From: Candidatus Mailhella merdavium
GTDB lineage: Bacteria > Desulfobacterota > Desulfovibrionia > Desulfovibrionales > Desulfovibrionaceae
Direction of reading: 5' to 3'
NCBI GenBank assembly: GCA_019119045.1
Contig: DWXS01000031.1
Coordinates: 28,615-92,614, forward strand
DNA length: 64,000 nt
Position numbers and translations under genes: made by a program. How positions within the stretch are numbered: position 1 is the stretch's first letter; every line of letters begins with the position of its first letter. Of this stretch, positions 34,341-48,153 are shown piece after piece. Below the pieces are notes generated by a model. The model did no database searches. It saw only the letters and a list, made by a program, of their open reading frames with translations, and was not told the DNA's origin.

Positions 34341-34434
34341 GGAGGCGTATCGTTACCGGTGTGGCGCCTGGTCTTCAAAACCAGTGGACGGCTGTGAGGT
34401 CGTCGGTAGGTTCGACTCCTATACGCCTCCGCCA
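34341..34434 (+). tRNA. selC: tRNA-Sec (anticodon UCA), CCA encoded
   Basis: GGAGGCGT...ACGCCTCC 8-bp acceptor, anticodon loop CTTCAAA containing TCA, long variable arm, GGTTCGACTCC T-loop, G discriminator plus CCA. Confidence 0.95.
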
Positions 34435-34486: not shown

Positions 34487-34904
34487 CACGGTTGATATTT
34501 CCGCAATCTCCCGTGACGCCTATCCTATCCATCATACGTATCAGACGAGCTGTCGGCGGAAAGATTCCGACGTGCCGGCTCGGCAAAGCTCCGACGACAA
34601 CTCAAGAAAGTCGACGGCAGCAATATTCAAAACATTACAGAACGGCATACGCTGTATAAACTGTTCTCGGAGGAATCCGGATTACGGATGGGAATTTCCA
34701 TCACAGAAGACGCGTCCCCCCGGTCGGCACATCGAGCTGAAGAGAAACACAAGACGCTGTTTCTTTGGCCCTCCCATCTCTCTGCTGCACGCAAGACTCA
34801 AAGCCGATCGGACTCCCGCTCAAGAGTTTTTGCAATCACCCGGTTAAACGACAAAAGGAGGGAAGACCCCTGTCTTCCCTCCCATACGTTCAAGACTTCC
34901 GTGC

Positions 34905-36905
34905 TTAGATGATATTACCAGCACACCACGCGGTATCTGTGGCATTGCGGATATTGGCCGGGCCCATGCAGTCGCCGGCGTTAATCACGTCAAAGGCCGT
35001 TCCCTGGAACGAATCGCGCAATTCCGCAAGCGGCTTGGAACCGGCAGAAATGATCACGGTATCGGCCTTGAAGAATCTGCTGCCGCCTTCTTTATCGACA
35101 GCAGCAACGCCTTCCGGAGTAATTTCCGTACATCTGGTGTCCACCTGAACATCCACGCCGTTCTTGTTCATATACTCTTCAAGGCTCATGCGTTCGGCAA
35201 TTTCCGACTTGGGAGCAAAGAAATGCCCCATTTCCAGCACGGTCACCTTCTTCCCCTTTTCCGCAAGAGAAATGCCGAGTTCGCAACCGACGGAGCCGCC
35301 GCCCACGATGACGATATTGGTACCCATCTTTTCCTCGTTGCCGAAGACATCCCAGGCCATCACCACGTTATCGCCATGAATCCCCGGAATGGGAGGAACT
35401 GCCTGTTCCGCGCCTACCGCCACGATGACGGCGTCATAATTGGCTTCGGAAATAACGGCGGCCGTAACTTCGGATTCCAGCAGAATCTTGATGCTCTCAC
35501 GCTGGCGTACCTGATGGATGAAGTATTCCCGCAAGGCATGAATTTCCTTTTTGAACCACAGATGTTCGGGATAAATGGCCGTCTGACCGCCAAGGAAGGC
35601 GCGCTTTTCAAACAGCGTAACATCATGCCCCTTGTCGGCGGCAGAAATGGCAGCCTGCATACCGGCAATACCGCCCCCGATTACGGCAACGCGCTTACGG
35701 CCATTAAAGCGGAATGCTCGTACACGCGCACTGCCCTGACCGACCAGAGGATTCACGGAGCAGCGGTTGTCGAAAGTCGCGTCGTTCAGAATGGTCACTT
35801 CCGTGGTAAGCGCGTTGCGACGGCCGCCGTCCACACAGAAATCGCAATGAATGCAGGGACGAATATCCTTTTCACGTCCGGCACGGATCTTGTTGACCCA
35901 CTCAGGATCGGCGATGGCCTGACGGGCCATGAGGATATAATCGGCCTTCCCCTCGGCAAGAATGCTTTCAGCCAGCTCGGGATTATGAATCGAGCCTATG
36001 ACGCCTACGGGCTTTTTGACCCCCGCCTTTTTGAGCGCCATGGAACCATCCACGTTATGACCGGGAGCGACAAAACATGTCGGATGCATTTTCGGGCGGG
36101 CATGAGCATCCAGTCTGGTTCCGCAGGACACATGGAACATATCTACATATTCTTCCATGATAAGAGCCTGACACGCCGCATCATCGGGAGTAATGCCGCC
36201 CTCTGCCCTGTCGTTGCCGTTCATGCGGATTTCTATGACCATGGAGTCCCCGACGACTTCACGGATTCGTCTGATGACCATGAGCGGGAAACGCACCCTG
36301 TTTTCCACGCTTCCGCCGTACTGATCAGTACGGTGGTTGCTCAGGGGAGACAGGAAATTGTTCATAAGCCAGCCATGACCATAGTGGAGCATGATGGCGT
36401 CAAATCCGGCCCGCTTGGCATCCGCCGCAGCGGTAACATACATCTGCGCCACATCCTCCATATCTTCCTCTGTCATCTCGCGAACCATGCGCCCGTTGTA
36501 CATGAAGGAACTCGGCCCCATGAGATCACAGGTGCCTGCAAGAGCGCAGATACCGGGATGATAAATTTCACAGGCAGTATTCATGCCGAAAGCATGAACC
36601 GATCGCTGCAAAATGTGCATGAATGTAAAGCCCTTGGACTTTTCATCAAGACGAATGGTGCCGAAATGCGCACTATGACTGGGAACTTCCACGGGAACAG
36701 CACAGGAGGCAAATCCGCCCCGGGCAAGATCGGTGTAATAATCTACGCCATAATCATTGATAGTGCCGTTGGCATCAGTGGAATAGGCGCCGGAAACCTG
36801 CATGGGGCCGACCATGATACGATTTTTATAAACAAGTTTTTTCTTGCCCACCGTCAGAGGCTGAAACAGATGAGGATATTTTTCCAGATACATGGGCTTG
36901 GACAT
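34905..36905 (-). CDS. OYE-family NADH:flavin oxidoreductase with C-terminal FAD/NAD(P)-binding domain (2,4-dienoyl-CoA reductase/BaiCD-like)
   Basis: LFQPLTVGKKKLVYKNRIMVGPMQ, GFDAIMLHYGHGWLMNNFLSPLSNHRTDQYGGSVENRVRFP, Cys cluster CIHCDFC...RCSVNP, RVAVIGGGIAGMQAAI and NIVIVGGGSVGCELG; ATG at 36905. Confidence 0.92.
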   Translation of the reverse strand: MSKPMYLEKYPHLFQPLTVGKKKLVYKNRIMVGPMQVSGAYSTDANGTINDYGVDYYTDLARGGFASCAVPVEVPSHSAHFGTIRLDEKSKGFTFMHILQRSVHAFGMNTACEIYHPGICALAGTCDLMGPSSFMYNGRMVREMTEEDMEDVAQMYVTAAADAKRAGFDAIMLHYGHGWLMNNFLSPLSNHRTDQYGGSVENRVRFPLMVIRRIREVVGDSMVIEIRMNGNDRAEGGITPDDAACQALIMEEYVDMFHVSCGTRLDAHARPKMHPTCFVAPGHNVDGSMALKKAGVKKPVGVIGSIHNPELAESILAEGKADYILMARQAIADPEWVNKIRAGREKDIRPCIHCDFCVDGGRRNALTTEVTILNDATFDNRCSVNPLVGQGSARVRAFRFNGRKRVAVIGGGIAGMQAAISAADKGHDVTLFEKRAFLGGQTAIYPEHLWFKKEIHALREYFIHQVRQRESIKILLESEVTAAVISEANYDAVIVAVGAEQAVPPIPGIHGDNVVMAWDVFGNEEKMGTNIVIVGGGSVGCELGISLAEKGKKVTVLEMGHFFAPKSEIAERMSLEEYMNKNGVDVQVDTRCTEITPEGVAAVDKEGGSRFFKADTVIISAGSKPLAELRDSFQGTAFDVINAGDCMGPANIRNATDTAWCAGNII

Positions 36906-36998
36906 GAGCAACTCCTTGTGTGATGCGTTCAGGATCAGTTGGTATTTATCCTTATACGGTCTTCTTATTTCCTCATCTATTGACCACGATATGATAGT

Positions 36999-37021
36999 GG
37001 TATAAAAAAATAATTGATACC
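36999..37021. promoter_or_regulatory. Candidate regulator-binding dyad GGTAT-N13-ATACC (OYE/LysR divergent region)
   Basis: ggtat aaaaaaataattg atacc; same spacing as the site at 42550. Confidence 0.55.
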
Positions 37022-37066
37022 AGACCGCCATATCCGGCCACGCGCCCCTCTTTTCAAGGAGCAGAA

Positions 37067-37996
37067 ATGCAGCTTCATTATCTTGAATACTTCGTTCAAG
37101 CCGTAGAATGCCGCTCACTGAACCGGGCGGCGCGAAAGCTGGACGTCAGTCCGCAGGCCCTTTGCGCAGGAGTAGCCGCCCTGGAAAAAAAGCTGGGCTA
37201 CCCCCTCCTGGAACGTTCCCCGTCGGGAGTACGTCCCACCAAGAACGGTGAAATTGTCTTCAAGGATGCCTACGAGCTGGGAGAAATGTTTCATAAATGG
37301 CGTTCTCTGTCGCGAAATCAGACAAAAGATACGATCATGGTCAAGCTCGGAGCATCGACAACGCTGATGCGCTGGCTGGTTCCTCAGATCATTTTGCAGA
37401 TACAGCAGAAGTATCCTCACATATACCTCGAACTGTTTGAATCCTTTGTGGAACATGTGTTTCACACTGTCATCGATCAGCACATGCTGGGGCTGATCAC
37501 CTGCGTCAACGAAAGAGTGGAAAGCACCTATCGCGTCCGCCTTGCGCAAAACAATATGTCGTATATGGAAGGGCCTGAAGACGGATGCGTGGTCATTCTC
37601 AACAGGTCTCACGCCTTTGCGGAACTTCCCATCCTCACGTTCAGGGAACTGGCCGAGCTTCGTCTGGCCTTCAATCCGAAGCGGGATCAGTATTTTGTCT
37701 ATCGCGACATATGCAAATATTTTTCACCTTCAGGCATCATCCATATTCCTGAACAGGAAAATCTTCTTCGTCTCATTTCCATGGACGCCTCCATAGCGGC
37801 GGTTCTCCCCCGAAGCGTCCTGCGCTCTCCGGGCGGCTGGACGCAGCGGCTGTGTGCCAAGGATGTCGAGGATTTTCCCATGCCGGGCCGTATCTGGTTC
37901 ATCTACCCCAAGAATATGCATTCGACAGAAAAAATTGTGCAAAAAGGCATCGCCAATCTTCTGACGCATCTGAAAGCGGAGGAATCCGAGCAATAA
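37067..37996 (+). CDS. LysR-family transcriptional regulator
   Basis: MQLHYLEYFVQAVECRSLNRAARKLDVSPQALCAGVAALEKKLGYPLLERSPSGVRPTKNGEIV HTH; divergent from the OYE gene. Confidence 0.94.
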   Translation: MQLHYLEYFVQAVECRSLNRAARKLDVSPQALCAGVAALEKKLGYPLLERSPSGVRPTKNGEIVFKDAYELGEMFHKWRSLSRNQTKDTIMVKLGASTTLMRWLVPQIILQIQQKYPHIYLELFESFVEHVFHTVIDQHMLGLITCVNERVESTYRVRLAQNNMSYMEGPEDGCVVILNRSHAFAELPILTFRELAELRLAFNPKRDQYFVYRDICKYFSPSGIIHIPEQENLLRLISMDASIAAVLPRSVLRSPGGWTQRLCAKDVEDFPMPGRIWFIYPKNMHSTEKIVQKGIANLLTHLKAEESEQ

Positions 37997-38315
37997 TTCT
38001 CTGTAAATGACATGCTGCCCGCAAGTTCGCAGTCGGAAAGCTCCTGCGCTCCCTGCCGCAATGTGCCGCATAAAAAGCAGATATCAGACCATAAGCGGCC
38101 GTGAAGACATATTGTCTCTCACGGAATATTGGTCTGACAAAACAGACGAACAGGCTGAATTCGCCGTGCTGTTCATCACAACGCTTCTTTGACTTGCAGC
38201 CGCCTGCGGATATCAGAACGCAACATGCTCGACCGATTCCCCCGTTGAACGGAACGCCCCCGTCGACCAGAAGCGTTCCGGAGCTGCAGATGCTTCTGAA
38301 TGGTGTAAAACCCAG

Positions 38316-38348
38316 AAGCGGAGTCCGACGATCAGGCGGACTCCGCTT
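38316..38348. terminator. Terminator-type hairpin between lysR and dctP (convergent region)
   Basis: AAGCGGAGTCCG-acgatcagg-CGGACTCCGCTT, perfect 12-bp stem. Confidence 0.7.
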
Positions 38349-38443
38349 TATGAATTGCGGCAACATATTTTCAGCGGCATATCGAGAAGCTGTTCTTTTC
38401 CCGCGCATATGCAGCAATGGGCCGCAAGCTGCACTGCAAAGAT

Positions 38444-39502
38444 TTATTCTGCGGCATATGTGGCGTTGGCTTCTTCCATGCACTTTTCAAACAGCTCAAT
38501 CGCTTCCCTGGCACGGGTGAGGCCGCGTTCTTCCATACCGGCAATCCACTGTTCCCGGAAAGGATACAACAGTTCGGCCATCTTGGCCTGCTCTTCGGCA
38601 GACATCTCATTCATATGGCACTTGTTGTTGGAAAGCACATAGTCCACAGATTCCTTGATGGCTGCGTCAACGGTGAGCCCAATCTGTCTGGACATGGCTT
38701 CACCGGTCGTTTCTTCCAGAATCTTCTGCAGATCGGGAGGCAGAGAATCCCACACGGAACGGTTCATGACCATGTAATGATAGCCGGGAGCGATCGGATA
38801 ATCCAGGATTTCGGTGAGTACTTCATAAAGCTTGAAGGGCTGAAGAATGGTAAGAGCCATGAGCGACGTGTCCGTCTGACCGCGCTGGATGCTCATATAG
38901 ATATCCGGGGGAGCCACAAAGATAGGTACCGCCCCGAATTTCGTGATGAGTTCGTCCGCTCCGGAAATGTGATAATTGATCTTTTTCCCCTTAAGATCCT
39001 CAACCGTACGGATGGGCGCATTGGATGTGAGCATCATGGGGCCGGTACTCCAGATGGTGAGGAGCTTGGTATTGGAGTTGTCGAGATCGGATTTCACCCA
39101 GTCGTTCTGCGTGACATATTTATAGAAGCCCATGCTGGCGGCGAGGCTGCTTTTTCCGGAAATATTGGCTTCACCCGTATCGGAATAGCCGTACAGGCCG
39201 GGGTTGGCGCCAAACAGGCTGTGTCCGATATCCACACGTCCCTTGACGACGGCATCGGGCACATCCTTGGATGTACAGATGGAACCCGGCGTATAATATA
39301 CGATTCTCAAGCGTCCGTTACTGCGCTTTTCCACTTCCTGCATCCATGGTTCCCATACCTTCTGATAGACGACGTGGTTTTCGCGATAGCCTTCGCTGGT
39401 GAAGGTCAGCTCGTAGGGGCGTTCGGCAGCCTGCGCGGCTGCGGGGCACAACAATGAGAGCGCCAGCAGAGGGAGAAACAGATTCTTTTTCATATGACTC
39501 AT
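38444..39502 (-). CDS. TRAP transporter substrate-binding protein (DctP family)
   Basis: Signal peptide; IVYYTPGSICTSKDVPDAVVKGRVDIGHSLFG, MVMNRSVWDSLPPDLQKILEE. Confidence 0.92.
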   Translation of the reverse strand: MSHMKKNLFLPLLALSLLCPAAAQAAERPYELTFTSEGYRENHVVYQKVWEPWMQEVEKRSNGRLRIVYYTPGSICTSKDVPDAVVKGRVDIGHSLFGANPGLYGYSDTGEANISGKSSLAASMGFYKYVTQNDWVKSDLDNSNTKLLTIWSTGPMMLTSNAPIRTVEDLKGKKINYHISGADELITKFGAVPIFVAPPDIYMSIQRGQTDTSLMALTILQPFKLYEVLTEILDYPIAPGYHYMVMNRSVWDSLPPDLQKILEETTGEAMSRQIGLTVDAAIKESVDYVLSNNKCHMNEMSAEEQAKMAELLYPFREQWIAGMEERGLTRAREAIELFEKCMEEANATYAAE

Positions 39503-39529
39503 CTCCTTATTAAGGTAGCTTTCCGACTG

Positions 39530-41428
39530 TTAGAAGAATGTATTCGGCAGCCAGAGGGCAATCTGCGGGAATATGGTAAGCAGCACGATAAGAAACGCGA
39601 TGCACAGGAAGAACAGCCATACATTCCTGAATATGGCTCCCATGGGAACATCTTTTGCCATGGAACTGATACCGAATACGTTTATACCCACGGGAGGCGT
39701 GATCACCGCCATTTCCGTAAGCAGCACGATAATTGTTCCAAACCATACCGGGTCAAAATTCAAAGCCTGTATGGTTGGGAAAACGGTAGGCAGCGTGAGG
39801 AGCAGAAGGGGCAACACGTTCATCATACAGCCCATGATGATGTAAAAGACAACAATGATGAAGAAGATGATGTAGCGATTAACTTCAAGACCGGAAACAT
39901 ACTGAGCCAGCGTGACCGTAATGCGCGTATAGGCAAGGAATACGCCGAGCAGCGATACGCACATGAGGATGAACAACAGCTTGCCCGCAATAAAGACCGA
40001 ACTTTTCAGGCAGTCCCTGGTCTGTGGCCAGCTGATGCGCCGGGTGGCCAGGGAATACAGCCAAACGGCCACGGAGCCGATAGCCCCCGCCTCAGCCGCG
40101 CTGAAAAACCCGCCGAGGATCCCCCCCATGATGATAAAAATAAGCAGCAGAATGGGAAGCATGCCTGTAAGGGAGTGTATCTTCTCCTTCATACTGTGAC
40201 TTTCGCCACGAGGCAGAATTTCCGGATGCCTGCGTGCGGTGATGAGCAGCACAAGGATGAACAGAGAACTCAGAATAATGCCGGGAATGACGCCGGCCAT
40301 GAACAGGCGTCCCGTGGAAGTTTCCGTAACGATGGCATAGATGATGAAGCTCAGACTCGGCGGAATAAGCACGCCGAGCGTGCCGCCGCAGGCCAGTGTG
40401 GCACAGGAAAATGCAGGATCATAGCCATGCTTACGCATTTCGGGCAGGGCTACCGAGGCCATGGTTACGCCGCAGGCCAGCGAATCGCCGCAAATAGCGG
40501 CAAAGCCGGCACAACCGATAATGGCGGCAATACCGAGAGAGGCGGGCGTTCTGCCCATCCAGATCCGGGCGGCCTTGAACATATCGGAGCTGATACCGGA
40601 AACCAGCGACAGTTCGCCCATCAGACAGAAGAGCGGCACCACGGCAAGCGTGGCGGAAAAGGCTGAACTGTAGGAAGTCATGCTCAAGGTATTGAAATGG
40701 GTAATGACGTCGGGCCGCAGACAGAGGAGACCAATAAAGCCGGAAATGCCCATAGCATACCCTAAGGGGAATCCTATGAACAGCACCACCATAAAGAAGA
40801 GCATTCCGAAAACGCCCAACTGCGCGCGGGTGGGGAAAATACCGGCATATTCCAGAATCCACGGAAACAATGCCGTAAGTACAGTGATGAGCACAATGAG
40901 AGGAATGAACCAGCCGACACCGTCCTTCATGATACCAATGAAGCAGCGCAAGGTTTTGACCAGCAATGTGCATGCAAAAATCACCATGCAGAACCCGAAG
41001 AACAGCATGGGAACAAAAAGAGGGATATGAAGCGTGGATGTAACTTCCGTGCCGCCGATCTTTTCAAAGGCGAGAATCAGAATTTCCCATCCCAGAATGG
41101 AAAAGAACACCAGGCCCATGAATTCGAACAGCGCATCAAGAAACTGCCTCACACGTGGAGAAAAACGCTGGTAGAGAAAATCAATGGCGATATGCCGATC
41201 CCGGCAGGAAACGACGATCATGCCGGAAACGGCAAGAGTTCCCATCATAAGTTCCTGAATTTCAAACGCTCCCGGGAAATAGGAACCCGCATGTCTGAGA
41301 AACACATCTACGGCTACGGGCACGGCAAGCAGCACCAGAGACACCGCACCGATAACCAGAGCAATAGTATAGATGACTGTCATAACAGGTTCAAACAGTT
41401 CTGATTGTCTTACCTCTGTATCTGCCAT
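39530..41428 (-). CDS. TRAP transporter fused small/large permease (DctQM)
   Basis: 632 aa; N-terminal DctQ helices (ALVIGAVSLVLLAVPVAVDVFLRH), C-terminal DctM (GGTLGVLIPPSLSFIIYAIVTETSTGRLFMAGVIPG, AEAGAIGS, PPVGINVFGISSMA). Confidence 0.93.
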   Translation of the reverse strand: MADTEVRQSELFEPVMTVIYTIALVIGAVSLVLLAVPVAVDVFLRHAGSYFPGAFEIQELMMGTLAVSGMIVVSCRDRHIAIDFLYQRFSPRVRQFLDALFEFMGLVFFSILGWEILILAFEKIGGTEVTSTLHIPLFVPMLFFGFCMVIFACTLLVKTLRCFIGIMKDGVGWFIPLIVLITVLTALFPWILEYAGIFPTRAQLGVFGMLFFMVVLFIGFPLGYAMGISGFIGLLCLRPDVITHFNTLSMTSYSSAFSATLAVVPLFCLMGELSLVSGISSDMFKAARIWMGRTPASLGIAAIIGCAGFAAICGDSLACGVTMASVALPEMRKHGYDPAFSCATLACGGTLGVLIPPSLSFIIYAIVTETSTGRLFMAGVIPGIILSSLFILVLLITARRHPEILPRGESHSMKEKIHSLTGMLPILLLIFIIMGGILGGFFSAAEAGAIGSVAVWLYSLATRRISWPQTRDCLKSSVFIAGKLLFILMCVSLLGVFLAYTRITVTLAQYVSGLEVNRYIIFFIIVVFYIIMGCMMNVLPLLLLTLPTVFPTIQALNFDPVWFGTIIVLLTEMAVITPPVGINVFGISSMAKDVPMGAIFRNVWLFFLCIAFLIVLLTIFPQIALWLPNTFF

Positions 41429-41584
41429 GTGCGACTCCTATGACTAACAACCATGACTCACCTGAACGCTGGTTTCAGGCATCCCATATTCCACACATCC
41501 TCACCGTAAACGCTATGCAGGCAGTGCGTATTTCGGCAAAGATCATCCCGAATGAATTAGTACGCGCTTATGAAGTCGAGACGT

Positions 41585-42445
41585 TCAAAACTTCAGAAGA
41601 CGAGCAGCGTTACCGTACAGAGAAAGCTGAAGGGCTTCTTCATCCCATGCTTTTTCCTTCCAGAGGCGAACCGCTTCTTCAAGACCTCGAACAGGATAGG
41701 AACTGGCAAAAAGCACCTGCCGCTTCAAGGCAGTATTGAATGCGGGCATGACATCCACTGAGGGCATGAACGGAAGGTAGAAAAAGAAATCAGGTACCCA
41801 GTACAGATTGGGATACTTGAAGGAAACCGCCGCCATGGAACTATAATGCGGCCAACACGCATGAGGAACAAGAAAGGCAGTCCCCTTATGACGGGATAGC
41901 ACATGCTCCAGCCGCATGGGGTCGGAATAGCTGAGATCCGAACCAATCAGATAGCTCATGGTAATCATGACGAAAATACCGAGGGACTCCGCAGTCTCGT
42001 ATATCGGCTCCAGCCTCGGATCATCACAGTAACACGGCTCGCTGCACCAGCCGGGTTCTATGGAAATTCCACGCATTCCCAGCTCGCGCACGCTGCGTTC
42101 CGCTATTTTAGGGGCCATGGGATCGAGCGCATCCAGAGCCGCAACGCCGAATAACCGTCCCTTGTACAGATTAACCAGTTCGTAAAGTACGTCGGGGCCG
42201 ACATACCCTTTGCTGAAACTGCTCGAACTGGTGGAAGCTCTCCCGCAGACGACGGCATAATCGATGCCGGCGGCATCCATTTCATCCATAAACACAGAGA
42301 GATCTCTCGTGGTTACCGAGCGGGGGGGAATGTAGCCGTACATCTGGCCAGGATATTGCGGATCAAATCCTGAAGCCCTGACATCGAACGGCCCCATCGA
42401 AAGAAATTCCTTAAAGGGGGGACGAATACGAAAGTCAATAATCAT
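41585..42445 (-). CDS. Amidohydrolase-2-like (PF04909-type) protein with atypical metal-ligand motifs
   Basis: MIIDFRIRPPFKEF..., GMRGISIEPGWCSEPCYCDDPRLEPIYETAESLGIFVMI, FLVPHACWP, VLFASSYPVRGLEEAVRLW; ATG at 42445. Confidence 0.82.
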   Translation of the reverse strand: MIIDFRIRPPFKEFLSMGPFDVRASGFDPQYPGQMYGYIPPRSVTTRDLSVFMDEMDAAGIDYAVVCGRASTSSSSFSKGYVGPDVLYELVNLYKGRLFGVAALDALDPMAPKIAERSVRELGMRGISIEPGWCSEPCYCDDPRLEPIYETAESLGIFVMITMSYLIGSDLSYSDPMRLEHVLSRHKGTAFLVPHACWPHYSSMAAVSFKYPNLYWVPDFFFYLPFMPSVDVMPAFNTALKRQVLFASSYPVRGLEEAVRLWKEKAWDEEALQLSLYGNAARLLKF

Positions 42446-42549
42446 GGTACAATCCTGCCTGACGGCTGTGAACTCCATAAAATCTATTTCACGTCAATGG
42501 GACACTAGCTAAAAAAATAACAAAAAAAAATTCTGAATTCCTTGATGCC

Positions 42550-42572
42550 GGTGTCAATTTTTTCTTGATACC
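42550..42572. promoter_or_regulatory. Candidate regulator-binding dyad GGTGT-N13-ATACC upstream of the amidohydrolase-TRAP operon
   Basis: ggtgt caattttttcttg atacc; same 23-bp spacing as 36999-37021. Confidence 0.55.
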
Positions 42573-43256
42573 CGACACCTTGCACCGCAAAGTAAAGGCA
42601 CAGCGATAACATGCTATAATTATTTGATATAAATATAGTTTACCTAAATTGTCGTTGCGTATACGTCTCTTCACGGCCGGAGCGTTCACTGGTATTCATG
42701 TTTTTTTTATTTCAAAGGATATCCCAAACCACACCTGTATAATTTTTTGCGAAACACGGCCTCTGAACAGGATTTGTCGGAGTATGGAGCCCTGATCTGC
42801 ATGAGCCGGGAACGCGGAAAAAGAACCATAATGTAATTTATTTCACAAAATAATGAGGCTGTTCCGGAACAAGAGCCCAGTACTGCACAGTTCCCGTATT
42901 ATACGACGGCTACCTGAACACGTTTTCCGTATATTCCTGGTATCCGTTAGGAACATTTTGCATTTGAAACCATCTGCCGGCAGGGCTCTGTATTCCGGCT
43001 CACAGGTCTCACATCGTAAATGAATTATAATTGCTCCCGCAGCGCAACGTAGTCTCTCCCTGCTCGATTCCGTAGCGTATCTCAGGAACGAAAAGCCCCG
43101 GGCATATCTTTCGGAACGTTCCAAGCAAAGGCTGTTAAAACTCCGCCCCGAAAAACGGGGCGGATCAGGGGAAGCATATGTATTTTCCGGCAGAGCGGAG
43201 GGGGAATGCCCGAATCCGCCCTTTCCGGAGCAATGCGGACGACGCGGGAAGTTCCG

Positions 43257-43769
43257 CTACAGATCATGCTGGCGCATGCGGTAGCGGGCGAGTTCCTCAT
43301 ACTGTGTGCCGGGGCGGCCGTAATTGGCGTAAGGCCAGATGGAGATCCCGCCTCTGGGCGTGAAAATCCCCGTTACCTCTATGTATTTTGGGTCCATGAG
43401 GCGAATGAGATCCTTCATGATCGCGTTCACGCAATCCTCATGAAAATCTCCGTGATTGCGGAAGCTGAAAAGATAAAGTTTCAGGCTCTTGCTCTCCACC
43501 ATCTTTTTGTCAGGCAGGTAGCTTATGCGTATTTCCGCAAAATCCGGCTGTCCGGTAATCGGGCAGAGACTGGTGAATTCCGGGCAGTTGAAACGAACCC
43601 AGTAATCGTTGTCGGGATGTTTGTTGCTGAAGGTCTCCAGCACTTCCGGGGCGTAATCGCTGCGATATTCCGTGCGTCTTCCAAGAAGACTCAGCCCCTC
43701 ATCGGCACGGGAAGCCCCGGACCCTTCCGCACTGTGGGCAGCGGCCCCTGCGTCCATTTCGGGTGTCAT
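43257..43769 (-). CDS. queF: NADPH-dependent 7-cyano-7-deazaguanine reductase QueF
   Basis: [58 protein letters not shown]. Confidence 0.97.
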
Positions 43770-43770
43770 G

Positions 43771-44454
43771 CTATATTTCCTTTATTTTCAGGATATTGTA
43801 GGAAATATCCTCATCGTACACATCGCTTCCCTCGTTTTTCTTAAGGGCCGCCACCACCCGGATGGTCAGAGGAAGCACAATGATTTCATAGCTTGTCTTG
43901 GCCACTACCTGAATAAGCATCAGCTTTGCAAGCTCCTGCACGGGCATGAGACCGCCGAAGGCGAGCGGGAAGAAGATCAGGGAGTCCGCACTTTCACCTA
44001 TCAGCGTGGAAAGCACGGCCCGGGCGGAGAAATTACGCCCCGCGCTGGCCACCTTCATCCGGCTCATGACATAGGCATTGAGGAAAGAGCCGACCAGAAA
44101 GGCCATGAGGCTGGACGCCGCAATGCGGGGAGCAAGACCGAAAACGAAGCGGAACGCTTCCTCACCTTCCCAGAAGGGTGCGGAAGGCAGAGCAATGGCG
44201 AGCTGGAACAGGGCCAGCATGCCGAAATTCATGGCAAAACCGAGCCAGATGATCAGTCTTGCTCTGCGAAAGCCCCATACTTCTGCAATACAGTCGTTGA
44301 TGATGTAGGAAACGGGGAAAACCAGAAAGCCTGCGGTGATGGTGAATGTCCCTATCTGAATGATTTTTGTTTCCAGAAGGTTGGAAGCGATAAGGCAGAC
44401 ACAGAAGACGACGGCAAGCAGCATGAAGGAAAGAGAAACGCTGGTGTTTTTCAT
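43771..44454 (-). CDS. Queuosine precursor transporter (QPTR/YhhQ family)
   Basis: 227 aa, multi-[33 protein letters not shown]; immediately upstream of queF. Confidence 0.92.
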
Positions 44455-44993: not shown

Positions 44994-46511
44994 TTATTTG
45001 TTCTTGCCCGCCTTTCTGGCCCGCTTCAGACTGTTGCGCAGGGCATCGCGGTATGTGCGCAGGACGGAAAGTCGGGCAAACTTCTTGTCTTCTGCGGCAA
45101 TGACGTGCCACGGCGCGTAATCCGTGCTGGTACGCAGGAACATTTCGTCGGCGGCCCGCACATATTCGGGCCACTTTTCCCGGTTGCGCCAGTCTTCGTC
45201 CGTGATTTTATACTGCTTCCACGGGATTTCCTCCCGCTCTTTAAAGCGCCGCAACTGCTCTTCCGGGGAAATATGCAGCCAGAATTTCAACAGGATATTG
45301 TTGCCGGCGGCAAGCTGAGCCTCGAAGATATTGATTTCCGCATAGGCACGGCTCCAGTCCTCCCGCGGGGTCAGAGCTTCCACACGCTCCACGAGAACGC
45401 GCCCGTACCAGGAGCGATCGTACACCGTGACGAAGCCCGCCCGGGGGATATGCCGCCAGAAGCGCCACAGATAATGATGTGCGCGTTCTTCCTCATTGGG
45501 CGCACTGATGGGAATGACATGGGCAATGCGCGCATCCACGCCCGCCATGAGCCGCCGTATGGAACCGCCCTTGCCTGCCGCGTCCCATCCTTCAAAAAGC
45601 AGTGTGCTGGAAATGCCCGCCTTATAGGCATGATAGGTCAGATCCTTCAGCTCGGCCTGAAGTTCCGCCAGCTCCTTCTTGTATCCGGCGTGATCTGCGC
45701 CGACGGAAAGATCGATGGCGTCCAGAGTGGAAATGATGCCCTCGCGCGCGCTGTCATCCGGCGCTTCCCTTTCTTCCATTTTCAGGCGCAGCATCCGGGC
45801 ATCCGCCGCACTGACGCCCCTGTCCACGGCAGCGATCACCGCCCTTGCGACGGCAAGATTCCTGTAGTTTGCGTCGGCCGCATCCACAATAGTCCACGGC
45901 GCGTCGGATCTGTCGGTCAAGGTGATGGCTCTGGCCGCCGCCTCGGCCAGGCCATCGTAATTTTCCGCAATTTTCGCATCGTAGGGAGTGAAGTGATGCA
46001 CCTGCCTGTTTTCCAGACGCTTTTTCAGACGACGGTCATGGGTCTTTTTATCCAGATGAAGCCAGATTTTCGCCAGAGCCATGCCCGAATCCACAAGACT
46101 GGCCTCCAGCCCGCGCCAATGGTGCATCTGCACGTCGAAGCCGTGCTTTCCCAGTTCATTGCAGCAGAAGGCACGCAGAGAAGGTGCATACCAGCCGCCG
46201 ACGAACACGGCCGTTCTGCCCTGCGCGGGCAGACGCCGCCAGTAACGCCAGTCTGCGGGACGCTCGCGTTCCTCGTCGCTTTCCATCCAGAAAATATGAT
46301 TATGTACGAACTTGCTGTCCATCCACTCCGAAAGCAGATTGACCACGGCTCCTCTGCCTGACCCGTCGATGCCCGCAATAAGGATCAGCAGGGGAATTTT
46401 CCGTTCCATACAACGGCGCTGGGCTTCAAAGAACTTCAGACGCAGCTGGGGGGCAAGCTCGGCATATTCCTCATCGCTGCAACTGCGCCCCAGGGCGACA
46501 TTTTCAAACAT
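44994..46511 (-). CDS. pap: Polyphosphate:AMP phosphotransferase (two-domain PPK2 class II)
   Basis: 505 aa with two PPK2 domains; LILIAGIDGSGRGAVVNLLSEWMD and LFEGWDAAGKGGSIRRLMAGVDAR; FVTVYDRSWYGRVLVERVE. Confidence 0.93.
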   Translation of the reverse strand: MFENVALGRSCSDEEYAELAPQLRLKFFEAQRRCMERKIPLLILIAGIDGSGRGAVVNLLSEWMDSKFVHNHIFWMESDEERERPADWRYWRRLPAQGRTAVFVGGWYAPSLRAFCCNELGKHGFDVQMHHWRGLEASLVDSGMALAKIWLHLDKKTHDRRLKKRLENRQVHHFTPYDAKIAENYDGLAEAAARAITLTDRSDAPWTIVDAADANYRNLAVARAVIAAVDRGVSAADARMLRLKMEEREAPDDSAREGIISTLDAIDLSVGADHAGYKKELAELQAELKDLTYHAYKAGISSTLLFEGWDAAGKGGSIRRLMAGVDARIAHVIPISAPNEEERAHHYLWRFWRHIPRAGFVTVYDRSWYGRVLVERVEALTPREDWSRAYAEINIFEAQLAAGNNILLKFWLHISPEEQLRRFKEREEIPWKQYKITDEDWRNREKWPEYVRAADEMFLRTSTDYAPWHVIAAEDKKFARLSVLRTYRDALRNSLKRARKAGKNK

Positions 46512-48153
46512 GGGAGATACCTCCGGTTCGTTGCGACGTTCCTATCCTGTCAAACTCGCTCTGCTCCCGATAGACACGGACGGCGCAGCGCATGTCGTAC
46601 ACCTTCCGGATCAGTTTGCCGCCGCGCTCCACTTCCTCGATTTCAATGGGGCAGTCGCCGGAAACCAGCATATGCAGTTCCAGATTTCCATCCGGCGTCT
46701 GCACGAAGCGGGCGGCCCGCACAATCTGCCGATGGCTTTTGTCCATGCGCTCGGCAAGATTGAGAAACAGAGAAACCCGACGTACATCGTCCCTGATCTC
46801 CTCGTCAAGCTGAAGGAAGATCGGCTGCTTTCTGGAAGCACGCTTGCGATGAAAAAAGGCCAGCGCGGCCATGAACTCTATTTCCCGATCGGTAAAGCCC
46901 AGCAGCTCCGTGTTGCGGATGAGATAATGGCTGTGCGCGTTATGATTGGTAAAGGAAATAAATATGCCGATATCGTGGAGCAGCGCGGCATAGAACAGCA
47001 GCTCCCGGGAAGCGGGCGCAGCGGCGTTCAGGCCCTGCGCCCTTGCGCTGTCGAACAGCTCCAGGGCAAGCCGGGCCACATGAAAGGCGTGCTTTTCCTC
47101 AAAGCGGCAGAAACGGGCAAGCTGAAGGACGCTTTCCTCCCTCGAGGGGAGCCCTCCCTCGTTTCCGGGCGAGGTACGCATGAGGTAGTCGACCAGAATG
47201 CCGTTCTGGAGATTGCGGTTGCTCACGACGACGCTTTCAAAGCCCTGTTCTTCCATCACGGTCTGGAGAATGGCGGCCCCGGCAATGAGAACGTCCGCAC
47301 GGGCGGGATTGATGCCCGGTATGCTGCGGCGTTCCTCCGCCGTGCGGGCGCACAGCTCCCGAACGGTTCGGATCAGCGCGTCATAGCTGAGGACATGGCG
47401 GGAGGCCCTGGAAGCTCTGCCTTCGCGGGCGGCGTCCGCATCCTCGCGGACGGCGGCTATTTCCGCGAGATTCTGCGCCGTTCCCGAACTGGCGACTGCC
47501 TCCACGATATCGAAATCCGCAATGCGCTGGAAGGAATGCAGCGCGACATTGCGGATATGGGCCTGCAAGGACGCATATTCGCGGGGAGACACGGGTTCCC
47601 TGCCGTCGCCGAAAAAGAGGTTGGTCAGGCGCACGCAGCCCAGCTTGACGGAATCAAGATTGCTGTAGCCCTGCGAGTTGCCCACGATCAGTTCCGTACT
47701 GCCGCCGCCTATGTCGATGAACAGGCGCAGTTTGTCGCTGCGTTCCAGCCCGCTGGACACGCCGAGATAAATCAGGCGGGCTTCCTCCTTTCCCGACACG
47801 ACGGTGAAGTCGATGCCCGTCCTTTCCCTCACCCGGAGGATAAATTCCTGAGCGTTGTCCGCGTCGCGCACGGCGGCCGTGGCAATGGCGACAATCTGCG
47901 CCGTTTCGTACACCGCGCACATTTCGGCCAGCCCGCGCAGAACGCCTATGGTTCGGCTCATGGCCTCTTCCTGAAGGCGGTTATGCACGAATCCGCCCTC
48001 GCCGAGGCGCACCATGTGCTTGACCTGATTCAGAACCGTGGTCGATCCGTCCGCATGAATACGGACAATCAGCAGCCGGAGGGAATTGCTGCCCAGATCG
48101 ATGATGCCGACATTCCGTTCCGTCGGCGAGACTATCCGGCCCGACATATGCAC
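46504..48153 (-). CDS. ppx: Exopolyphosphatase / pppGpp phosphohydrolase (Ppx/GppA) with C-terminal HD domain
   Basis: NVGIIDLGSNSLRLLIVRI, FIDIGGGSTELIVG, IPGINPARADVLIAGAAIL, C-terminal LLHDIGIFISFTNHNAHSHYLI. Confidence 0.93.
   Translation of the reverse strand: MHMSGRIVSPTERNVGIIDLGSNSLRLLIVRIHADGSTTVLNQVKHMVRLGEGGFVHNRLQEEAMSRTIGVLRGLAEMCAVYETAQIVAIATAAVRDADNAQEFILRVRERTGIDFTVVSGKEEARLIYLGVSSGLERSDKLRLFIDIGGGSTELIVGNSQGYSNLDSVKLGCVRLTNLFFGDGREPVSPREYASLQAHIRNVALHSFQRIADFDIVEAVASSGTAQNLAEIAAVREDADAAREGRASRASRHVLSYDALIRTVRELCARTAEERRSIPGINPARADVLIAGAAILQTVMEEQGFESVVVSNRNLQNGILVDYLMRTSPGNEGGLPSREESVLQLARFCRFEEKHAFHVARLALELFDSARAQGLNAAAPASRELLFYAALLHDIGIFISFTNHNAHSHYLIRNTELLGFTDREIEFMAALAFFHRKRASRKQPIFLQLDEEIRDDVRRVSLFLNLAERMDKSHRQIVRAARFVQTPDGNLELHMLVSGDCPIEIEEVERGGKLIRKVYDMRCAVRVYREQSEFDRIGTSQRTGGISHV

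Follow-up and report, generated by a model that had tools for sequence, protein, structure and literature searches.

A putative LysR-controlled TRAP transporter and flavoenzyme locus with two altered active sites in Candidatus Mailhella merdavium

Gene content and layout of the locus

We analysed a 64,000-nucleotide stretch of DNA from Candidatus Mailhella merdavium (hereafter the window), which is part of contig 87 in a genome of 3.0 Mb (88% complete), the assembly to which our genome-wide counts refer. Within it is a five-gene locus encoding an OYE (old yellow enzyme)-type flavoenzyme, a LysR-family regulator, the DctP solute-binding protein and fused DctQM permease of a TRAP (tripartite ATP-independent periplasmic) transporter, and a protein of the amidohydrolase fold (Table 1). 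An earlier note, made from the sequence alone, had described this gene set and its layout, with all genes except lysR on one strand, and both were confirmed by gene calls and by Pfam scores above the curated cut-offs for all five genes. The TRAP system has its solute-binding protein and its small and large membrane subunits, the latter two fused here. Judged by their spacing (27 and 156 bp), the amidohydrolase gene, dctQM and dctP look like one operon. The OYE gene is a unit of its own, separated from the divergent lysR by a 161-bp gap, and it cannot belong to the transcription unit of the other minus-strand genes because the opposite-facing lysR sits between them. A longer OYE open reading frame starting at 37118 was dropped, as it overlaps lysR and the orthologues begin at the ATG equivalent to 36905.

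Table 1. Features of the locus and, in other genomes, of loci holding RxR relatives of its amidohydrolase-fold protein near sulfonate genes
Feature	Position	Strand	Description
OYE/2,4-dienoyl-CoA-reductase-type FAD/Fe-S flavoenzyme	34905-36905	-	ATG start, 666 aa; PF00724 182 bits, PF07992
LysR-family regulator	37067-37996	+	309 aa, divergent from OYE gene; PF00126, PF03466
DctP solute-binding protein	38444-39502	-	352 aa; PF03480
Fused TRAP permease DctQM	39530-41428	-	632 aa; PF06808, PF04290; TIGR00786 above cut-off
Amidohydro_2-fold protein, RxRPP family	41585-42478	-	297 aa; PF04909 79.6 bits
Operator-like palindrome GGTATAAAAAAATAATTGATACC	36999-37021	.	divergent oye/lysR gap; conserved in L003 and L045
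Second operator-like palindrome GGTATCAAGAAAAAATTGACACC	42550-42572	.	upstream of amidohydrolase-dctQM-dctP operon
Terminator-like hairpin, 12 pairs, 3' of OYE gene	34856-34883	-	consensus scan only
tRNA-Sec (selC)	34341-34434	+	
RxR relatives near HpsG-type enzyme	L064:8913-13334, L067:3257-10586, L068:5040-10087, L072:2774-9559, L073:9576-15826		
RxR relatives beside SsuD	L102:7989-9992, L104:5297-8843, L180:4517-8203		

Conservation of the block and its position beside selC

The exact locus was found in three genomes including that of the window, the others being L003 (genome G127, an uncultured Mailhella metagenome-assembled genome) and L045 (genome G147). Because these two hold the five genes in identical order and orientation, with 79-94% protein identity, the cluster is conserved and not a chance grouping. 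A megablast search of a plasmid collection gave no plasmid or close-DNA relatives. The tRNA-Sec gene that the earlier note had placed next to the locus is indeed present, though a link between the two did not hold up: in G147, selC is on another contig, and ftsH shares a contig with the cluster but at a distance of about 860 kb. Since the block sits elsewhere in its relatives' genomes, it behaves as a unit whose placing beside selC is incidental. We likewise set aside a selenium role, for which the NCBIfam selenium-LysR match scored 82 bits where the cut-off is 250.

A palindrome shared by the two promoters

By comparing the intergenic regions of the window locus, L003 and L045, we found a shared 23-bp dyad, GGTATMAA-N7-TTGAYACC, in the oye/lysR gap and again upstream of the amidohydrolase-TRAP operon. 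The second copy overlaps a TTGACA -35-like hexamer that a consensus scan placed 16 bases from CAGAAT. Scanning the window gave no palindrome beyond these two even at three mismatches, with 0.43 chance matches expected, and across the whole genome there are exactly two sites at one mismatch or fewer, against 0 for the reversed control pattern. G127 and G147 each carry the palindrome at both promoters, two sites apiece, and it was absent from G089, G138 and G115, Mailhella genomes that gave no close relative of the locus DctP. In G147 the second palindrome and the amidohydrolase gene are separated by a gene that, judged from its sequence, resembles a transposase (L045:10263-10607) and possibly cuts the operon off from its promoter.

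The regulator has the helix-turn-helix and effector domains of LysR proteins, and dyad-symmetric sites lie beside the two promoters. The classical LysR dyad centre is T-N11-A; that of the palindrome is T-N13-A. With the palindrome confined to two promoters in the genome, the five genes probably form one LysR regulon, in which the locus LysR would bind the two predicted operator sites. The proposal of a LysR-controlled locus for uptake and enzymatic conversion is thus backed by a palindrome unique in the genome to its two promoters.

An OYE-type flavoenzyme with tryptophan at the proton-donor position

The flavoenzyme combines an FMN-binding TIM barrel, a [4Fe-4S] linker and an FAD/NAD domain, as do 2,4-dienoyl-CoA reductase (DCR) and 2-naphthoyl-CoA reductase (NCR), and we detected the PF00724 and Pyr_redox_2 domains and the four linker cysteines of the DCR-type family. 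It resembles DCR (1ps9), NCR (6qkg), BaiCD and the long form of bilirubin reductase in domain order and aligns with them over the greater part of its length, but it did not reach the curated NCBIfam scores for BaiCD (366 of 825 bits), long-form bilirubin reductase (382 of 750) or mycofactocin OYE (345 of 793).

Known OYE-type FAD/Fe-S/FMN enzymes use a tyrosine as proton donor, whereas the locus enzyme has Trp179 (codon 36369-36371) aligned with Y166 of DCR and Y197 of NCR. The proton-donating tyrosine has been described as invariant among OYE members (PMC6502838), and Y166 as the key catalytic residue in a study of steroid reductases (PMC12238238). Tryptophan occupies this position in all 32 members of the clade to which the enzyme belongs (the W-clade), which also have glutamate for the usual glutamine before the HxG motif and an altered cysteine spacing; in the locus enzyme the spacing is CxxCxxC-x24-C, as against the CxxCxxxC-x11-12-C type of known enzymes. 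A third group of OYEs was seen elsewhere (L038:14559-16700, L035:11764-13866); its Fe-S linker is shortened (CTRCxxCED), and its active-site motif is followed by SR, not SP.

An amidohydrolase fold without the usual metal ligands

The amidohydrolase-fold protein belongs to PF04909 by a wide margin over the cut-off of 26.4 bits, and its structure model (pLDDT 93.3) is a TIM barrel whose best fold match is 3irs, followed in rank by metal-dependent decarboxylases and the LigJ hydratase. It shares the fold, the Pfam family and the strand-6 His with LigW 5-carboxyvanillate decarboxylase, gamma-resorcylate decarboxylase, ACMSD and LigJ, but it lacks the HxH, strand-5 His and strand-8 Asp ligands that these enzymes carry: Arg17 and Arg19 stand in for the strand-1 HxH, the strand-5 His is gone and Ser260 replaces the strand-8 Asp. 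In a profile alignment with LigW2 and related decarboxylases, the metal His and Asp residues of the latter face non-ligand residues. Because the metal ligands are absent, the protein is probably metal-free.

RxR replaces HxH in 98 of 110 aligned sequences, the RxR clade having a support of 0.86 with six nested exceptions, and the strand-8 Asp position is mostly Ala, Ser, Gly or Thr, with Asp in only 8 of the sequences. The strand-6 His (His206 in the locus protein, which also keeps Arg80) is present in all 110, and D15, R17, R19, R80, P187, H206, P210, P262 and N290 are invariant in 50 relatives. Members of the RxR branch were found in Desulfobacterota, Alpha- and Betaproteobacteria and Campylobacterota, and plasmid-borne relatives occur in Cupriavidus, Methylobacterium, Azospirillum, Methylocystis, Aliarcobacter and others.

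Among proteins of solved structure, the closest relative is BB4693 from Bordetella bronchiseptica (PDB 3irs, 3k4w), an uncharacterised TIM-barrel protein (profile E = 1.7e-99; TM 0.84/0.89) that shares the fold and the RxRPP, GR, H..WP and AYP motifs, with about 30% identity to the locus protein. We place the latter in the same RxRPP (BB4693-like) group, whose D-x-R-x-R-P, G-R, H-x3-P and Y-P motifs fall in columns that are invariant or nearly so. A literature search, to which many subscription papers were out of reach, gave no relevant paper or function for BB4693/3irs. The metallo bile salt hydrolases (PMC13081902, a preprint) were set aside as a different, binuclear-metal amidohydrolase family.

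A solute-binding protein lacking the carboxylate-binding arginine

By both sequence and predicted fold, DctP is closest to TarP proteins with crystal structures in complex with coumarate, cinnamate, ferulate and caffeate (7nr2, 7nra, 7nrr, 7nsw, 7ntd) and to other aromatic-acid binders, and the best Foldseek matches of its structure model (pLDDT 87.5) are TarP with coumarate or cinnamate. Solute-binding proteins of carboxylate-importing TRAP systems hold the ligand through a salt bridge to a conserved arginine (Arg173 in the numbering of 4P47; PMC11668362). The TarP proteins have this residue in a KIR motif, whereas DctP and its two orthologues read KIN, with Asn176 (38975-38977) in its place; nearly all DctP proteins of neighbouring cassettes retain the canonical arginine. 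With Arg replaced by Asn176, an ordinary carboxylate is not a safe guess as the ligand.

A family of cassettes across Mailhella

OYE genes number from 0 to 27 per Mailhella genome, with 11 in the genome of the window. Among the matches listed for the genus, with at most nine amidohydrolase relatives of each genome counted, 52 of 94 amidohydrolase relatives have an OYE gene within 5 kb, where random placement would give 4.6 +/- 2.1. The concern that homologues of the two enzymes might never be co-located in other genomes was therefore not borne out. Gene maps place OYE and/or amidohydrolase genes with TRAP-DctP, TRAP-TAXI, TTT, DASS or MFS transporters; the accompanying regulators are of the LysR or PAS/sigma-54 type. 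Several of the transporter and regulator labels come from sequence inspection of cluster representatives and not from a family search. Long OYE-type flavoenzymes are greatly expanded in the genus (27 in G089, 16 in G184 and 14 in G115, for example), often with a transporter and regulator of their own. Some OYE-amidohydrolase cassettes additionally hold PrpD/MmgE-like and ferredoxin-nitroreductase-like proteins (L044:8250-10547, L048:7366-9638, L049:10179-12541). A published operon joining amidohydrolase, OYE and TRAP genes did not appear in our literature search, which is no proof of novelty given the many subscription papers outside its reach.

Proposed function

Our best reading of the locus, to which we give a probability of about 0.55, is a LysR-controlled import-and-reduction unit whose two enzymes have rebuilt active sites. 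One LysR regulator would govern two units, oye and amidohydrolase-dctQM-dctP, probably via the 23-bp palindrome at both promoters, and the TRAP system would import a small compound, probably aromatic or unsaturated, that is recognised without the customary salt bridge between Arg and carboxylate. Once the compound is inside the cell, electrons of NAD(P)H may reach it by way of the FAD, Fe-S cluster and FMN of the OYE-type enzyme. With Trp at the proton-donor position of this enzyme, the proton would have to be supplied by another residue or by water, unless the reaction is something other than plain ene reduction. The TIM-barrel partner, probably metal-free, could use Arg17, Arg19 and Arg80 to hold and steady an enolate or carboxylate intermediate, while His206 acts as acid/base. 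Because an Arg cluster with His206 would suit such an anion, decarboxylation, C-C cleavage or isomerisation would be favoured over amide hydrolysis. Overall, the cassette would be an inducible system for import and reduction through which electrons are disposed of and usable carbon may be freed. Since both enzymes lack the catalytic residues normal for their families, their chemistry is not deducible from known enzymes, and the weakest step is the substrate class, which might be a small aromatic or unsaturated compound, perhaps uncharged at the recognised end.

Several observations weigh against this reading. The OYE gene is transcribed apart from the amidohydrolase-TRAP unit. Amidohydrolase relatives are mostly paired with Tyr-type OYEs, and W-clade OYEs elsewhere mostly have no amidohydrolase partner, the window locus being among the few with both; as the two are usually not partnered, they need not treat one molecule in sequence. 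The co-location counts are non-independent, the cassettes having duplicated, and the TarP likeness and the Arg loss of DctP give opposed hints on ligand charge.

A conventional catabolic operon would also fit the family assignments of the genes and a DctP fold nearest to binders of coumarate, cinnamate, ferulate and caffeate. In such an operon an unsaturated or cyclic carboxylate would enter through TRAP, the OYE would reduce it as a normal ene reductase and a metal-dependent amidohydrolase or decarboxylase would cleave the product; many sister cassettes do have canonical-Arg DctPs and Tyr-type OYEs. The earlier note had reasoned along these lines, starting from the organic acids that TRAP systems usually import. 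Its case weakens at each step, as the DctP has no canonical carboxylate Arg, ordinary ene reduction is called into question by the Trp, and ordinary amidohydrolase or metal-dependent decarboxylase chemistry by the loss of the metal ligands. All three sets of residues are replaced identically in the three orthologous loci, and we consider an ordinary operon unlikely. The same losses could instead mean that catalysis has been lost from one or both enzymes, the RxR barrel serving as a binding or scaffold protein and the W-clade OYE in electron transfer or sensing, for hallmark catalytic residues are gone. The invariance of R17, R19, R80 and H206 in 50 diverse relatives suggests, however, an altered active site that has been kept and not one in decay, and the flavin and Fe-S domains of the OYE are fully conserved, which leaves dead enzymes a rather improbable explanation.

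The Arg cluster of the RxR proteins might also bind a sulfonate, with the cassette feeding sulfonate-derived carbon or sulfite metabolism. In five loci (Table 1), RxR relatives lie near an HpsG-type (2S)-3-sulfopropanediol dehydratase, a glycyl radical enzyme, and its activase, and the four of these five enzymes that were scanned all exceeded the NCBIfam cut-off; others, on plasmids of Azospirillum, Aliarcobacter and Methylocystis, are neighbours of SsuD, an alkanesulfonate monooxygenase (and of SfnG). Yet the window cassette is without any sulfonate gene, the Arg by which IseP holds sulfonate (PMC11668362) is missing from its DctP, and the RxR family is diverse (25-43% identity) with many other neighbours, including MmgE/PrpD-like proteins, an aromatic dioxygenase and tricarboxylate transporters. 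An organosulfonate pathway at this locus is thus very unlikely.

More broadly, and only tentatively, we suggest that Mailhella and its relatives carry interchangeable reductive cassettes based on two enzyme types not described before, a metal-free Arg/His catalyst of the amidohydrolase fold and an OYE that works without the Tyr donor, and that the transporter and regulator of each cassette fit it to a compound of its own. If so, one widespread branch of the amidohydrolase fold, as yet uncharacterised, would have kept the barrel while swapping its metal for arginines, and a clade of OYEs would break a residue described as invariant. Gut Desulfovibrionaceae seem to have multiplied these cassettes, which could reveal dietary or host compounds that they import and reduce. 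The operator pair would offer a direct handle on the import-and-reduction unit proposed here, in that an inducer of both promoters should lie close to the substrate.

Neighbouring genes

Adjoining the locus, at 43257-44454, we detected a queuosine pair consisting of a QueF-type preQ1 synthase and a queuosine precursor transporter. Beyond it, inspection of the sequence at 44994-48153 revealed two adjacent genes resembling a two-domain PPK2-type kinase and a Ppx/GppA-type phosphatase, which suggests a polyphosphate pair.

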